Positions 22,599 to 32,816 of a DNA stretch of 32,873 nucleotides are shown here, piece after piece (the first letter of the stretch is position 1; every line of letters begins with the position of its first letter). This stretch comes from a virus. The notes under the pieces are model-generated. The model searched no databases, was not told the DNA's origin, and saw only the letters and a list, made by a program, of their open reading frames with translations. The position numbers were made by a program, and so were the translations under genes. Where the stretch lies: positions 1-32,873 of the IMG/VR virus record IMGVR_UViG_3300006353_000005. One strand, written 5' to 3'.

Positions 22599-22792
22599 AC
22601 AGCATCCTCCAGTTCATCTCCAACCAGGCCATCGGCGTCGCCGGCGCTCTCGTGGTGCTCTCGCTCTACATCGTCGGCGCACGCATCGACATGCCATCAG
22701 AGACGGATGCGCTCCAGCGTTCGGCCCAAACCTCCAACTCTCGCGCCGCTGAGTACGCGGCTCAACACGCCCTCGTGGCTGCAAAGGAATGA
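22595..22792 (+). CDS. Small inner-membrane protein
   Basis: A 65-residue protein from the ATG at 22595 (MNSILQFISNQAIGVAGALV), overlapping the previous stop. Residues about 10-29 form one membrane helix (NQAIGVAGALVVLSLYIVGA), and the C-terminal half is a soluble, Ser/Ala-rich helix (SRAAEYAAQHALVAAKE). It ends at 22792, immediately before the acyl carrier protein gene. Function unknown; a role together with the carrier protein at the membrane is possible but not shown. Confidence 0.55.
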   Translation: MNSILQFISNQAIGVAGALVVLSLYIVGARIDMPSETDALQRSAQTSNSRAAEYAAQHALVAAKE

Positions 22793-22794
22793 CC

Positions 22795-23037
22795 ATGGAA
22801 GTCACCACCATCGAGAGCCGAGTGCTCAAGCAGATCCAGAAGCAACTCGGCCGCGCGCAGCCGCCAAAGCTGACCGACAGGCTTGTCCAAGATCTGGGCG
22901 TCGACTCCATGGACTTGATGGAAATCATCATGTTCCTGGAAGACGAGTTCTGCATCGAGATGGTCGACGAAGAGGCGCTGAAGTGCGTCACGGTCGCCGA
23001 CGCAGTGGCCCTGGTCTCGGTCTCGCAACCATCGTGA
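22795..23037 (+). CDS. Phage-encoded acyl carrier protein-like protein
   Basis: An 80-residue protein from the ATG at 22795, with AAGGA upstream (MEVTTIESRVLKQIQKQLGR). The phosphopantetheine site is visible: LGVDSMDLMEIIMFLEDEF with Ser38 in the D-S-M motif, followed by the usual acidic helix II and VTVADAVALV in helix IV. Size (80 residues) and acidity equal bacterial AcpP. A host transferase would load the prosthetic group. Carrier proteins supply acyl chains for lipids or modify proteins; in a phage, the partner is unknown. It differs from a typical host AcpP in having Cys residues (EFCIEM, LKCVTV). Confidence 0.88.
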   Translation: MEVTTIESRVLKQIQKQLGRAQPPKLTDRLVQDLGVDSMDLMEIIMFLEDEFCIEMVDEEALKCVTVADAVALVSVSQPS

Positions 23038-23725: not shown

Positions 23726-24240
23726 AGCGCAGCGGATTCAAGCGTCTGCAGATGGTGCACATGCCGCCGTCGGTGCCGCAGCGTCTGGAGCGGCCCGTGG
23801 TGATGGCCGACTGCAGCGCAATGTCGCAGCCGATGGCAAAGCCCGAACCGCAGCGCAATCCGCATCTGCTATCGATGGCCCATGGCCGGCCCTGCTTGCT
23901 GCGCACCAGCGCATGCAACTTCGACACCAGCACCACAGTAGCCGCCCATTCGAATCTTCTGATCCACGGCAAGGGCCGCGGGCGCAAGGCTGACGACTGC
24001 TATTCGGTCTGGGCTTGTGCGCGGTGCCATGCCTGGCTCGATGGCAGCTACAGCGCCGAGTTCGCGGACAAGGAAGAAGCCTTCATGTCCGCCCTTGTCG
24101 CCCAGGTCGATGAATGGAAGGCCATCGCCGACAGCACCTCCACCAATTCCAAAGATCGCGCCGCCGCTCAATGGGCGCTCGATCGCCTCAACGTTTCCCG
24201 ATCCCTCATCAATCAACCTGGAGCAACCCGTGAACTCTGA
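23719..24240 (+). CDS. YbcO-like (DUF1364) putative nuclease
   Basis: A 173-residue protein, GTG start at 23719 overlapping the HD gene by seven bases. After about 50 poorly conserved residues come AHGRPCLLRTSACNFDTSTT, VAAHSNLLIHGKGRGRKADD and SVWACARCHAWLDGSY. This is the Cys-rich, HNH-like frame of DUF1364/YbcO nucleases (C-x-R..., A-H, then A-C-x-x-C-H-x-x-L/I-D). These are phage nucleases thought to act on recombination or DNA intermediates. Its last 11 bases overlap the first DGR variable-protein gene. Confidence 0.8.
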   Translation: MLKRSGFKRLQMVHMPPSVPQRLERPVVMADCSAMSQPMAKPEPQRNPHLLSMAHGRPCLLRTSACNFDTSTTVAAHSNLLIHGKGRGRKADDCYSVWACARCHAWLDGSYSAEFADKEEAFMSALVAQVDEWKAIADSTSTNSKDRAAAQWALDRLNVSRSLINQPGATREL

Positions 24241-24841
24241 AAAGACCACCGTTCTTGTCCCTGCAACCTTTGGCGCCCCCTTCGAAGGTGGCTTCTACGG
24301 CGGAAAGATCCGCATCGGCGACGGCATCTTCGCCGTCGTCTGGGCGCCCAAGGCCACCGGCGACATCAAGGGCCTCTGGTTGCCGAGCTACACGCAGGTG
24401 CCGAACACCGACAGCTACTTCGACAGCATGGCGAATACCGTAGCGATGGCCGCGGCCGGCAGCCCCATCGCTCATCAGGCCCTGGCCGCCGAGATTGCCG
24501 GGCACAAGGACTGGTGCATCCCCGCGCGCGATGTGCTCGAGCTGGCCTACCGACACCTGAAGCCCTCCAGCTACGAGAACTACGCATACGAGGACGGCGA
24601 GAACACGAGCAGCGTTCCTCCGGGCGATGCATACACCGAGGAGCTGCCCGCGCAAACCAGCGTCGAGGCTTTCCGCAAAGGCGGTGCCGAGGCCTTCGAA
24701 GAGGCCTGGTACTGGAGCAGCACGCAGGCTTCCAGCTACGGCGCCTGGAATCAGTACTTCTACGACGGCCTCCAGGGCTACTACAGCAAGAAGTTCGGAG
24801 GCCGCGCCCGCCTCGTCCGCTTGATTCAGCTCAACTCTTGA
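24230..24841 (+). CDS. DGR variable protein 1, DUF1566 / C-type-lectin-like
   Basis: A 203-residue protein from a GTG at 24230 with GGAG six bases before it, overlapping the previous gene. It begins M/V-NSEKTTVLVPATFGAPFE, has a loop-rich centre (GDIKGLWLPSYTQVPNTDSY), a helix DWCIPARDVLELAYRHLKP and a C-terminal EAWYWSSTQ followed by the diversified part. The order PARDVLEL..., WYWSST..., RLVR is the DUF1566 (Lcl C-terminal) pattern, a C-type-lectin-like fold often used by DGRs. Residues 165-197 are coded by the variable region; its Tyr/Gly/Asp/Leu/Ser positions are those given by template AAC codons. It has no signal peptide. What it binds is unknown. Confidence 0.9.
   Translation: MNSEKTTVLVPATFGAPFEGGFYGGKIRIGDGIFAVVWAPKATGDIKGLWLPSYTQVPNTDSYFDSMANTVAMAAAGSPIAHQALAAEIAGHKDWCIPARDVLELAYRHLKPSSYENYAYEDGENTSSVPPGDAYTEELPAQTSVEAFRKGGAEAFEEAWYWSSTQASSYGAWNQYFYDGLQGYYSKKFGGRARLVRLIQLNS
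24722..24820 (+). repeat. DGR variable region 1 (VR1)
   Basis: Ninety-nine bases align without gaps to template 25935-26033. There are 13 differences, each at a template A (AAC changed to TAC, GGC, GAC, CTC or AGC). The last 35 bases (about 24786-24820, AGCAAGAAG... to CGTCCGC) are identical after the last change, which is the expected initiation-of-mutagenic-homing part. Confidence 0.95.
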
Positions 24842-24867
24842 GTCCTTCAATCCTTTCAGGAGTACCC

Positions 24868-25377
24868 ATGGCAATCACTCAAGAGACCATTCAAGAAGAG
24901 ACGAAGAAGCTGGGCGAAATGATCGCCCGGTTCGAGTCCATCGGCGTAAACGTCGGCGATGCCAAGGCATGGGCCGAAGGCCTGCTCGCCAAGCTCAAGG
25001 CCAGCGCGGCCACCGTCCTGAGCCTCCCCGGCATCGAGATCACGCTGGCGCCGGGCGAGCGCTATGCGGGCCTTCTCCTTGACGAGGAAGGCAAGCCCAG
25101 TCACCACCTGGTGCTGCTGCCCGGCGAGTTCGAAGACGTGAGCTGGGATGCCGCCAAGAGCGCAGCAGAGAAGGCCGGCGGCGAGCTTCCCTCCAGGCGT
25201 GAGCAGTCCCTGCTCTTCGCCAACCTGAAGAGCGAGTTCAAGGCCGCGTGGTACTGGTCGAGTGAGCAGGCTTCCAGCAGCTACGCCTGGACTCAGTACT
25301 TCGGCTACGGCAGCCAGAGCTACTACGGCAAGGAGTTCGGAGGCCGCGCCCGCCTCGTCCGCAGATTGTTCCTTTGA
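24868..25377 (+). CDS. DGR variable protein 2, DUF1566 / C-type-lectin-like
   Basis: A 169-residue protein from the ATG at 24868, preceded by AGGAG. It starts with a helical, coiled-coil-like part (residues 1-50, QEETKKLGEMIARFESIGV) and continues with a lectin-like domain: SLPGIEITLAPGERYAGLLL, then VSWDAAKSAAEKAGGELPSR, EQSLLFANLKSEFKAAWYWS. The end (133-169) is coded by variable region 2 and finishes RLVRRLFL at the stop. The N-terminal half is unrelated to that of variable protein 1, so the two share only the end of the fold. The helical start could serve for oligomers or for a docking partner. No signal peptide. Confidence 0.9.
   Translation: MAITQETIQEETKKLGEMIARFESIGVNVGDAKAWAEGLLAKLKASAATVLSLPGIEITLAPGERYAGLLLDEEGKPSHHLVLLPGEFEDVSWDAAKSAAEKAGGELPSRREQSLLFANLKSEFKAAWYWSSEQASSSYAWTQYFGYGSQSYYGKEFGGRARLVRRLFL
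25267..25367 (+). repeat. DGR variable region 2 (VR2)
   Basis: One hundred and one bases align without gaps to template 25938-26038, with 14 differences, all at template A (including AAT to ACT and AAG to GAG). After the last change, the 33 bases from 25335 to 25367 are identical to the template, and the match goes 5 bases further than VR1 does. Confidence 0.95.
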
Positions 25378-25396
25378 CCCTTTAACTCTTTGAGTC

Positions 25397-25762
25397 ATGG
25401 CCCTGCACACCGAACTGCCGATCTACAAGAAGGGATGCGAGCTCGTCTCGCTGGCCTTCCACGTCCAGAAAGAAATGCCGCGAGGCTTCAAGAACTCTCT
25501 GGGCGAAAAGATCACCGTGCACTGCACCGAGATGGTCAACCTGATGGCGCTCGCGAATGCAACGCGCGGTCAGGATCGGGCCGCCCACATCCGAGATTTG
25601 CTACAGCGCCAGCACGCGACCACCGTGCTGCTGCGTGTCTGCCACGACAGCCGCTTCATCTCGACCAAGCTGTGGTCCCAGTCCGTGCAGCTGCTTGACA
25701 ACATCGGCAAGCAGGGCGGTGGATGGCTCAAGGTTTCACACGTAACGGCGCCTGCAGCATGA
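25397..25762 (+). CDS. avd: DGR accessory variability determinant (Avd-like four-helix bundle)
   Basis: A 121-residue protein, MALHTELPIYKKGCELVSLA, with the family order: IYKKGCELVSLAFHVQKEMP, RGFKNSLGEKITVHCTEMVN, a third helix rich in Arg/Gln/Leu (IRDLLQRQHATTVLLRVCHD) and a fourth with FISTKLWSQSVQLLDNIGKQ. This is the Avd/23S-rRNA-intervening-sequence four-helix bundle. In BPP-1 Avd forms a basic barrel-like pentamer that binds the reverse transcriptase and template RNA. It stands between the variable genes and the template/RT, and its stop overlaps the first in-frame RT ATG. The ribosome-binding site is weak. Confidence 0.92.
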   Translation: MALHTELPIYKKGCELVSLAFHVQKEMPRGFKNSLGEKITVHCTEMVNLMALANATRGQDRAAHIRDLLQRQHATTVLLRVCHDSRFISTKLWSQSVQLLDNIGKQGGGWLKVSHVTAPAA

Positions 25763-27135
25763 CGGTCAAGGCCCACATGCCCGTGCGTAATTTGAATCTG
25801 GTCGCGCCGCTGCCCCACGAGGGCACCGCCATGCGCACAACGGATACCGCTGCACCCGTGCAGGCCCGGTCCGGCGCAGTCTCCCCGCTGATCGGCGCAG
25901 GCCTTCGGCAGGGCGACGTAGATAGCGCGAACCAACGCAGGCTTCCAGCAACAACGCCTGGAATCAGAACTTCAACAACGGCAACCAGAACAACAACAAC
26001 AAGAAGTTCGGAGGCCGCGCCCGCCTCGTCCGCAGATTCATATCCGTTTTCCTTCGAAGAGCTGGCGCAGGCCTACTTGGACTGCCGAAAAAGCAAGCGC
26101 AACACGGCAAGCGCGCTCGCCTTTGAGAGCCAGCTCGAGCGCAACCTGTGCGCTCTGTATGAGGAACTGGCCAGCGGCGCTTGGCGCCCTGGTCGGTCGA
26201 TCTGCTTTGTCATCACGCGGCCCAAGCCGCGCGAGGTCTGGGCCGCGGACTTCCGTGACCGCATCGTCCACCACCTCCTGTACAACCGCATCGGGCCGCG
26301 CTTTCACGCGAGCTTCGTGCACGCCAGTAGCGCATGCATCCCGGGGCGCGGCACGCTGTACGCCGCCAAGCTGCTGGAGCGCGACGTACGTAGCATCACC
26401 CAGAACTGGAGCCGCCCGGCCTTCTACCTGAAGTGCGACCTCGCCAATTTCTTCGTGGCCATCGACAAGGCAACGCTGCGCGACCAGTTGGCGCGCAAGG
26501 TCGGTGAGCCATTCTGGTTGGCGCTGGCCGAGACCATTCTCTTTCACGACCCGCGCGAAGATCACGATCTTCGCGGCCGCGCTGAGCTGCTGGCGCGTGT
26601 TCCGGCGCACAAGAGCCTCTTCAACGCGCCGGCGCACACCGGCCTGCCGATCGGCAATCTCAGCAGCCAATTCTTCGCGAACGTGCACCTCGACGCGCTC
26701 GATCAGTTCGCGAAGCACCAGCTGCGCGCCACACGGTACGTGCGCTACGTCGACGACTTCATCCTGCTGCACGAGTCGCCCCAATGGCTGAATGCCGCGC
26801 ACGGCCGCATCAGCGAATTCTTGACGCGGCGACTCGGAGCCCATCTCAATCCGAAGAAGACGATTCTGCAGCCGGTTGTCCGAGGCATTGACTTCGTCGG
26901 GCATGTCATCAAGCCATGGCGCCGCAGCACCAGGCCTCGCACGGTCGCTGCCGCTCTGCGACGCATCGAACAAGCCCCAGCCGAAGAAATCCAGCAGTCG
27001 GCCAACAGCTATTTCGGGCTCCTTCGGCAAGCCTCTGCTAGCCATCAGGACCGCGCCTCCCTCGCGCGTGCGGTCCTGGCTCGTGGGCATGCCGTCGAGA
27101 GCAACTTCACCAAAGCATTCAGAAAGGCCTCTTGA
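25759..27135 (+). CDS. DGR reverse transcriptase
   Basis: Conserved DGR-type RT. Counting from the ATG at 25759 (458 residues), the catalytic motifs are DLANFF with Asp227, then GLPIGNLSSQFFANVHLD (295-312, the DGR/retron-like SQxxAN form), YVDD at 330-333, and the later LNPKKT and GIDFVGHVI motifs. The conserved part begins at PFSFEELAQAYLDCR (about residue 97), just after the template repeat. No ATG, GTG or TTG lies in frame between the repeat and that point except a TTG at 26077, inside the first conserved helix. Upstream in-frame starts are ATG 25759 (overlapping the avd stop as ATGA), 25783 and 25831, and GTG 25858. The true start is therefore uncertain. Confidence 0.93.
   Translation: MTVKAHMPVRNLNLVAPLPHEGTAMRTTDTAAPVQARSGAVSPLIGAGLRQGDVDSANQRRLPATTPGIRTSTTATRTTTTRSSEAAPASSADSYPFSFEELAQAYLDCRKSKRNTASALAFESQLERNLCALYEELASGAWRPGRSICFVITRPKPREVWAADFRDRIVHHLLYNRIGPRFHASFVHASSACIPGRGTLYAAKLLERDVRSITQNWSRPAFYLKCDLANFFVAIDKATLRDQLARKVGEPFWLALAETILFHDPREDHDLRGRAELLARVPAHKSLFNAPAHTGLPIGNLSSQFFANVHLDALDQFAKHQLRATRYVRYVDDFILLHESPQWLNAAHGRISEFLTRRLGAHLNPKKTILQPVVRGIDFVGHVIKPWRRSTRPRTVAAALRRIEQAPAEEIQQSANSYFGLLRQASASHQDRASLARAVLARGHAVESNFTKAFRKAS
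25935..26038 (+). repeat. DGR template repeat (TR)
   Basis: A 104-base repeat with many AAC codons in the variable-protein frame (it would read QASSNNAWNQNFNNGNQ and then N-rich, ending GGRARLVRR). Twenty-odd template adenines lie in the part that differs. It lies 173 bases after the avd stop and is wholly inside the open RT frame, where it reads Thr-rich (TTPGIRTSTTATRTTTTRSS). Its transcript would be the mutagenised template. Confidence 0.95.
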
Positions 27136-29340: not shown

Positions 29341-29624
29341 GCAACCACATCAGCACTGTTCGTCAGCATCTACTCGATCAAATGGCGGCGCTGCGCTCGG
29401 CCAGCGGCTCCGAGGCGATCAAGCAGGAACTGGACCGCGCCAAAGGCATCAGCGAACTCGCGCAAGTCGCCGTCAACACGGCAAAGGTGGAGGTGGACTA
29501 TCTCATTGCCACCGAGCAGACCTGCACGCCGTTCCTGGAGCCCGATACGCCGCGCCTGACGACGGCCGAGGGCATTCCTGGGAGCGGCATCACCAGTATC
29601 ACGCGCCATGCGCTGCAAGGATGA
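29337..29624 (+). CDS. Hypothetical phage protein
   Basis: A 95-residue protein (MSNHISTVRQHLLDQMAALR), ATGA overlap with the HNH gene and GGAGG before the start. It is helical in its first two thirds (SGSEAIKQELDRAKGISELA, then VNTAKVEVDYLIATEQ), so a short coiled coil is likely, with a loop-rich end. Helical products of this type often follow HNH genes in phages, but no role is known. Confidence 0.6.
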   Translation: MSNHISTVRQHLLDQMAALRSASGSEAIKQELDRAKGISELAQVAVNTAKVEVDYLIATEQTCTPFLEPDTPRLTTAEGIPGSGITSITRHALQG

Positions 29625-31107: not shown

Positions 31108-31331
31108 GCATCGTTCTCACTGAAGAAGAGTTGGTCGCCATCACGGGCTACAAACTTTCCACCATGCAGCTCGACGTTCTGCGCCGCCGCGGCTTCTACC
31201 GGGCCTACATTGGGCGCAAGGGCGTGATCCTGGAGCGCTCGCACTACGAGGCTGTCACTCGCGGCCAGGACGATGCGCCGGCAGCGCTGCCGCGCAAAGT
31301 CGCCAAGCTCACCCACATGAGGGCTGCATGA
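31104..31331 (+). CDS. DUF4224 family protein next to the integrase
   Basis: A 75-residue protein, MSIVLTEEELVAITGYKLST, with the DUF4224 signature L-T-x-E-E-L-x-x-I-T-G-Y, followed by MQLDVLRRRGFYRAYIGRKG and a basic end. Small DUF4224 proteins lie upstream of integrases in many Burkholderia/Pseudomonas prophages, where they could act as a recombination directionality factor or regulator. Its helix-turn-helix-like first half is compatible with DNA binding. It overlaps the integrase start by four bases. Confidence 0.85.
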   Translation: MSIVLTEEELVAITGYKLSTMQLDVLRRRGFYRAYIGRKGVILERSHYEAVTRGQDDAPAALPRKVAKLTHMRAA

Positions 31332-32422
31332 TCCGCTCTCGCAACACTCCAGACGGCCTGCCGTTCCGCGTGTACGAGCGCTACGGCAAGCGGCTCTACA
31401 GCATCGGCTACAAGATGAAGTCTGGGCGCTGGGCGTTCCGATATCGGTGCTCGGTGGACGATGCCCATCAGATCCAGAAGCTGCGTCGCAATGCGATTGC
31501 CGAGTCCGCGCGCGTCGTGGATGACGTTCCCGAAGGCGGATTTGCTGGCCTAGTAGATGCGTGGTTTGAATGGCAGGAAGGTCTGCCCGAAGGCTCGGCC
31601 AAGAAACGCAAGCAGAGCACCATCGACGAGAACAAGAACGAGGCCCGGCTGCTGAAGGCCGACTGGGGCCATTTCGAGGTGCACGAGATCACCCGGACGA
31701 TGGGCTACGACTACCTCGAAGCCTACGAGCACACGAGGCCCGAGAAGGCGAACAAGGAAATTGCGCTGGCCCGGCTGATTCTGGAATACGCGATTCGCAA
31801 GAACCTGATCCAGACCAACCCACTGGATCGGATCTCGAAGAACAAGCGCGTCAAGGAAGCGAAGCGCTACGTCACCGACGACGAAATGAACATCGTGGTC
31901 GCGACCGGCCGCGAGATGGGCGGACCGTACCACATCATCGCGCTGGCGCTGAAGACGGCGTTCCTGTGCGTCCGCCGGTCATTCGAGGTGCGCAAGGTGG
32001 CACGCGACGCTATCACCGAGGCCGGGATTCTGTGGACGGACTCCAAAGACCCGACCAAGCCGAAGAGCCTGATCCAGTGGTCGCCCGAGTTGCGCGAGAC
32101 CATCGACGAGGTGCTGGCGATCAAGCGGAACAGCCTGGCGGGTTCGTTCCTGCTGTTCGGCAACCTGCAAGGGCAGCGCTACACGAAATCGGGCTGGGGG
32201 AAGCTGCTCGGCACGCTCATGGCGGCGTCCGAGGAAATGGCCGCGGCCATGGACATCGAGTTCCGGCACTTCAGCCTGCAGGACTGCCGGCCAAAGGGTG
32301 TCACGGACAAGCTCGAGCGTGGCGACACGGACACATCGAACGCCACCCTGCATACCAACGAAACCATGATTGCGCGCGTCTATGACCGCCGTGCGACCAA
32401 GAAGGCCACGCCTGCGGGCTGA
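31328..32422 (+). CDS. int: Tyrosine site-specific integrase
   Basis: A 364-residue protein. An N-terminal arm-binding part (PFRVYERYGKRLYSIGYKMK) is followed by the core-binding domain (about 73-170, with DYLEAYEHTRPEKANKEIAL) and the catalytic domain. The catalytic residues seen are Arg216/217 in LCVRRSFEVRK, a Lys in KPKSLIQW (about 246), Arg321 in LQDCRPKG, His342 in LHTNETM and the nucleophile Tyr352 in ARVYDRR. The H-x-x-R box has Gln318 in place of the first His, a tolerated variation. It should recombine the phage with the 3' part of the adjacent tRNA-Asp gene. Confidence 0.92.
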   Translation: MIRSRNTPDGLPFRVYERYGKRLYSIGYKMKSGRWAFRYRCSVDDAHQIQKLRRNAIAESARVVDDVPEGGFAGLVDAWFEWQEGLPEGSAKKRKQSTIDENKNEARLLKADWGHFEVHEITRTMGYDYLEAYEHTRPEKANKEIALARLILEYAIRKNLIQTNPLDRISKNKRVKEAKRYVTDDEMNIVVATGREMGGPYHIIALALKTAFLCVRRSFEVRKVARDAITEAGILWTDSKDPTKPKSLIQWSPELRETIDEVLAIKRNSLAGSFLLFGNLQGQRYTKSGWGKLLGTLMAASEEMAAAMDIEFRHFSLQDCRPKGVTDKLERGDTDTSNATLHTNETMIARVYDRRATKKATPAG

Positions 32423-32739: not shown

Positions 32740-32816
32740 TGGCGGAGTGGACGGGACTCGAACCCGCGACCCCCGGCGTGACAGGCCGGTATTCTAACCA
32801 ACTGAACTACCACTCC
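32740..32816 (-). tRNA. tRNA-Asp (anticodon GTC)
   Basis: The minus strand reads a complete 77-base tRNA with encoded CCA. It has a 7-bp acceptor stem (GGAGTGG with CCACTCC), the D-loop GTAGTTCAGTTGGTTAGAAT, an anticodon loop CCTGTCACG with GTC, and a T-arm GGGTTCGAGTCCC. Its 3' end points to the prophage integrase, so it is the probable attachment site; the core would be in its 3' half. It marks the right boundary of the prophage. Confidence 0.95.

Follow-up and report, generated by a model that had tools for sequence, protein, structure and literature searches.

An RT-15-associated diversity-generating retroelement with a candidate long-range helix closing its template repeat in a siphophage-like prophage

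Introduction

To our knowledge, priming of complementary DNA (cDNA) in a diversity-generating retroelement (DGR) is known from one system, BPP-1. There, avd abuts the template repeat (TR), a 144-nucleotide (nt) spacer RNA (Rfam Phage_DGR) separates the TR from the reverse transcriptase (RT) gene brt, and a single tail gene, mtd, is the target. The primer is located in this 3' spacer, and a motif at the 3' end of avd stops the cDNA (PMC12875486). BalMu-1, Vibrio phage ZX4290 and Faecalibacterium phage Lagaffe keep the BPP-1 order, with the TR 25-31 nt from avd and a gap of 114-152 nt between TR and RT; their TR/VR differences are A-biased as well. In this work, we describe a DGR in the IMG/VR virus record IMGVR_UViG_3300006353_000005 (positions 1-32,873; this whole stretch of 32,873 nt is called the window). 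The element resembles BPP-1 in its Avd, its homologous RT, the restriction of repeat differences to template adenines, the lectin-fold class of its targets and a TR lying between avd and RT. However, avd and TR are separated by the structured RNA RT-15, a 3' spacer is absent, and two targets lie outside the tail region. We give a probability of roughly two in three to the overall explanation that this is an RT-15 DGR whose cDNA would be primed through a long-range helix from the 5' side of the TR, with two lectin-like targets.

The RNA family RT-15 (RF03018) and its neighbourhood to RT genes are already catalogued. Its Rfam model stops at the TR and excludes it, and the motif complementary to the TR 3' end has no partner in the model structure. 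A search for a link between the family and DGRs found no paper containing "RF03018" or "RT-15 RNA", the original RNA survey probably being outside the searched literature, and others may have recognised RT-15 in DGR priming before. Burkholderia phage Magia shares with the window avd, RT-15, an RT of 61% identity and a placement near the integrase, and its lectin-fold genes have been noted as possible DGR targets; it differs in the target genes and the genome, and its helix is weaker, with pairs at positions 1-5 and 7-8. Overlap of the TR with the 5' part of the RT open reading frame (ORF), which the window also shows, has been described before as DiGReF group 3 (PMC3521204); the available part of that survey gives no RNA element and treats the arrangement as mechanistically irrelevant (PMC3521204).

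Results

A search of the whole record gave one TR (25935-26038) and exactly two variable repeats (VRs), and the targets, avd, TR and RT all share one orientation, the plus strand. VR1 (24722-24820) differs from TR 25935-26033 at 13 of 99 bases, and all 13 fall on the 32 template A's (P = 5.6e-8 for this by chance). VR2 (25266-25367) differs from TR 25937-26038 at 14 of 102 bases, again with all 14 on the 33 template A's (P = 1.4e-8), and non-A decay is absent from both repeats. An earlier note, made from the sequence alone, had given the VR1 interval and both counts of A-site differences exactly, while its VR2 start, 25267, was one base late. It had further stated that the two VRs differ at most sites, which was overstated, because they differ at 13 of the 31 shared template A's; nine A's are altered in both, five of them to the same base. 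At least two homing events, as it proposed, still follow from these differences.

Both VRs are located at the ends of the target ORFs. VP1 (24230-24841, 203 residues) has an Lcl_C/DUF1566-like, C-type-lectin-like C-terminal part that contains VR1; it matched Pfam PF07603 under the gathering score (E 2.7e-7) as well as phrog_4245, and the top Foldseek match of its AlphaFold model (predicted local distance difference test score, pLDDT, 76.5) was the Legionella Lcl C-terminal domain at E 0.026. VP2 (24868-25377, 169 residues), which carries VR2, belongs to the same fold class, with PF07603 likewise under the gathering score (E 5e-5), phrog_4245, and weak matches of its model (pLDDT 76.3) to the Lcl C-terminal domain and to C-type lectins. 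These structure matches are weak but consistent, and they suggest that both proteins are C-type-lectin-like targets. Downstream, avd (25397-25762) was recognised by Pfam bAvd (E 7e-10, 39.8 bits against a cut-off of 40), by phrog_3206 ("Avd protein of DGR") and, under the cut-off, by NCBIfam DivGenRetAVD. The RT ORF (25759-27135) has its conserved core from about 26041 and reads YVDD at the catalytic motif (26746-26757). Database searches with the RT returned Pfam RVT_1 and, as the best solved relative, 8ub7 (E 1e-36), whose RT chain has 328 residues, the length of BPP-1 Brt; the alignment begins at residue 110 of the ORF opening at 25723. With its A-only differences, Avd, YVDD RT and lectin-like targets, the element is a genuine DGR and a complete one, in which a single template serves two target genes. 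The same claim in the earlier note, and its placing of Avd, TR and RT side by side in one orientation, were thus borne out by the alignments, the Pfam and PHROG matches and the A-only signature of the relatives.

What this account lacked was the template RNA: the earlier note was right about the DGR and missed both RT-15 in front of the TR and the RT frame running open through it. RT-15 occupies 25746-25937 at full length (181.8 bits in cmscan, where the gathering score is 82, covering model positions 1-192) and ends at the TR start. It makes up the 172 nt between avd and TR, and the TR continues directly into the RT coding region, so that the structured RNA is 5' of the TR and a spacer RNA between TR and RT, as in BPP-1, is absent. 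Scans of viral and genome contigs yielded 160 loci; over 158 of them, the avd stop is a median of 172 nt from the TR, and the TR end a median of 6 nt (range 0-28 nt) from the RT core. RT-15 ended at the TR in all 11 relatives scanned, and it was also found in phages Magia, Cruim01, Haboob and QDWS. When genomes were searched with the RNA model alone, every match above the cut-off stood beside this RT and avd; weak matches below the cut-off did not. Compared with the 3' spacer of the BPP-1-order DGRs, this placement argues that the structured template RNA has switched sides. It is this layout, not the two targets, that is the less ordinary feature of the element. In BalMu-1 (L194 2298-2441), Rfam RT-14 is found directly 3' of the TR, and it looks like the 3'-spacer counterpart of RT-15.

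The conserved RT-15 strand UGAAUCUG (25793-25800) is complementary to CAGAUUCA (26033-26040) at the TR end, and the window's unconstrained minimum-energy fold includes this helix with pair probabilities mostly of 0.6-0.8. Among the loci, the two strands covary, as in TTGAATCTG/CAGATTCAA, TAATCTG/CAGATTA, ATGAATCCG/CGGATTCAT, TTTCAATCTG/CAGATTGGAA, TAAATCTG/CAGATTTA and GTTGATCTG/CAGATCAAC. Helix statistics were calculated on 139 non-redundant loci, where Watson-Crick pairs exceeded partner permutation by 14.5 standard deviations. At helix position 7, the pairs were G-C in 72 loci, T-A in 43, C-G in 12 and A-T in 2, making 93% Watson-Crick against 40% with permuted partners, and sliding the partner by 1-4 bases lowered the paired fraction from 0.85 to 0.12-0.29. 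Against a tree-based null, position 7 showed 10 coincident changes (mean 1.1, maximum 5), and when one strand was allowed to evolve along the RT tree without regard to the other, p values were 0.001 for position 7 and 0.006-0.009 for positions 2, 8 and 9; independent pairs on supported branches were too few to decide. Partner permutation, sliding and the tree-based null together ruled out chance or slid pairing. The complement at positions 7-9 is missing from the VRs, and the helix also occurs in the Pseudomonas group. The compensatory changes speak for the long-range helix, and do so even once the RT tree is allowed for.

As a separate observation, position 6 (25795/26038 in the window) opposes a TR C to a conserved RT-15 A in 60 loci, whereas the VRs mostly have T; this mismatch is conserved and specific to the TR.

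The helix coincides with the boundary of the copied stretch. In the VRs of 137 loci, TR=VR identity stays at 0.99-1.00 as far as helix position 1, falls at position 2 to 0.74 in distant VRs and 0.96 in the VR next to avd, and is near random by positions 8-9; in the window, TR=VR1 identity ends at 26033, the first base of the helix 3' strand. Therefore, the copied stretch ends where the helix begins. At the 5' edge, the identity climbs sharply 8-10 nt past the conserved ATAGC of RT-15. The 3' side of the RT-15 strand is directed into the TR, like a primer, and priming in BPP-1 also takes place at this end of the TR, by an RNA strand of the spacer (PMC12875486). Because of the identity ending at the helix start, the strand orientation and this parallel, we prefer to read the helix as a primer/template site that would be supplied from the 5' side of the TR, with 25793-25800 as the proposed primer strand and 26033-26040 resembling a primer-binding site.

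A plain BPP-1-like DGR would account for the locus differently: the primer RNA would be 3' of the TR, overlapping the RT coding sequence, and RT-15 would only stop the cDNA or stabilise the transcript. Such a division of tasks has its precedent in BPP-1 itself, to whose RT and Avd those of the window are homologous. However, the 0-28 nt between TR end and RT core leave no room for a non-coding spacer, synonymous sites in the first approximately 60 RT codons show no clear excess of conservation over the rest (ratio 0.90-1.14), which an overlapping RNA domain would demand, and the TR 3' end has a covarying partner upstream of the TR. This alternative is thus unlikely. An Sp-like RNA concealed within the beginning of the RT gene was also considered and rejected, as the synonymous-site profile of 149 RTs showed no clear suppression.

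No stop codon interrupts the RT reading frame across the TR. The window has no in-frame ATG, GTG or TTG between 25861 and 26076, and an RT-frame ATG overlaps the TGA stop of avd (ATGA at 25759); from this, the RT is probably translated from that ATG, placing RT-15 and TR within the ORF. Upstream, this frame stays open as far as the avd stop at 129 of the 158 loci, a set biased to open frames because the query included the RT-15/TR region, and in most Pseudomonas members it is closed upstream, with in-frame ATGs within the TR instead. Since RT-15 and TR are mostly inside the RT frame, and an RT start overlaps the avd stop, the helix could be real and yet govern RT translation or transcript processing, not priming. 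But a role of this kind does not predict that TR=VR identity should end at helix position 1 across the 137 loci, and the helix is present in the Pseudomonas group, where the frame is closed. We consider this explanation improbable as well, and priming from the 5' side of the TR remains the preferred one.

The relatives show how these elements behave over time. Two VRs are the commonest number per locus (100 loci), followed by three (37 loci), so two is usual in this large phage DGR family, and 316 VRs pooled from it carry 3908 A-site differences against 72 others. Loci L058 and L059 share their RT, TR, flanks and two of three VRs without any difference, and the remaining VR differs at 14 of 31 A's and at 0 of 77 other bases, which marks a recent homing event. 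L005, the nearest divergent relative of the window (locus about 86% identical), has a TR that departs from that of the window at one base, and both L005 VRs carry the same change; all other differences in VR2 are at template A's, and VR1 has a single additional one at a non-A base. By this comparison, the VRs follow the changes of their own TR.

Further loci showed individual features. In L036 (1892-3064), both VRs lie in one frame of 391 residues, as if two target genes had fused, and a distant VR of L014 (1380-1484) has 7 non-A differences from its TR, perhaps a target no longer homed to. L008/G003 has a further weak TR-like match at 29501-29584, some 6 kb away from its other VR-like match and possibly a remote VR. 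Five single genomes or metagenome-assembled genomes contain two RT-15 DGRs on different contigs (L126/L140, L139/L150, L128/L136, L084/L098 and L086/L099).

Several observations weigh against the helix-primed explanation. In 60 of the 139 loci, A is mismatched with C at helix position 6, positions 8-9 are paired in only about two thirds, and at least 5 of the 9 pairs form in only 63 of 139 single-sequence folds (29 with swapped partners). The anchors used to find the loci predetermine helix positions 1-6 in RT-15 and 1-3 in the TR, which leaves positions 7-9 alone free of this bias in both strands. A GC-rich hairpin of the BPP-1 type (7-10 bp, GRNA loop) was not found after VR1 or VR2, where the window has only AT-rich repeats of 4-5 bp: CTCAA-CTC-TTGAG (24830-24842) after VR1, too short for such a hairpin, and the likewise weak ACTC-TTT-GAGT (25385-25395) after VR2. 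In the family, a stem of at least 6 bp follows 82 of 326 VRs against 14 expected, with loops usually other than GRNA. Finally, L004, the only near-identical copy, has VRs identical to those of the window. The invariant VRs of L004 and the weak hairpins are also what a non-functional remnant would show, but the RT with its YVDD motif and avd are intact, RT-15 is full length, the VRs lack non-A decay, and they track the TR base change seen against L005. A remnant is hence very improbable, and the window copy may be active now.

An identical copy of the window stretch lies within the 43-kb IMG/VR contig L004/G001, whose remainder encodes a tape measure protein, a distal tail protein, tail fibre genes and an endolysin. 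These genes indicate that the element belongs to a temperate, siphophage-like prophage. Searching this contig by DNA similarity revealed no third VR and no VR in the tail region. The DGR sits between the repressor region and an integrase-sized ORF, distant from the tail genes, and its targets are thus in the early/integrase arm. The probable integrase ORF (31328-32422), which had no family match in Pfam, PHROG or NCBIfam, adjoins a tRNA-Asp gene (32740-32816). A tRNA beside an integrase is the usual arrangement of an attachment site, and this one is likely the attachment site of the prophage. Just upstream of the DGR region, the phage carries an acyl carrier protein gene (22789-23037; PP-binding domain, TIGR00517-like).

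Discussion

According to the above-described analysis, a working order for the element can be proposed. A single transcript through avd, RT-15, TR and RT would yield both proteins and the template. RT-15 would fold just 5' of the TR, and its strand at 25793-25800 would pair with the last TR bases (26033-26040), so that the TR would form a loop bounded 5' by the closing stem of RT-15 and 3' by the long-range helix. The RT, together with Avd, would begin cDNA at the helix edge with RT-15 as the primer strand, and RT-15 may itself bind the RT-Avd complex. Copying would run toward the TR 5' end and halt near the RT-15 stem, which may act as the stop; errors opposite template A's would give the A-to-N changes, and the cDNA would replace VR1 or VR2 in the two lectin-like genes. 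In BPP-1, a script found no exact Watson-Crick stretch of at least 6 between the TR 3' end and the spacer; by eye, AGGUGGU of the spacer can pair with AUCACCU with one G-U.

For the lineage as a whole, we lean slightly toward a permuted template RNA, in which the priming strand is 5' of the TR, the TR is looped, and the template lies within the RT coding sequence. If this is true, a second arrangement would show that the essential part of DGR priming is a helix on the last TR bases and not the side from which its partner originates, and the orphan Rfam family RT-15 would gain a function. Besides TR/VR comparison, the helix would provide a third means of delimiting the TR, and the layout would offer a compact template without a separate 3' spacer for engineered diversification. 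Meanwhile, this lineage diversifies genes away from the phage tail, and therefore its targets may not serve host attachment.

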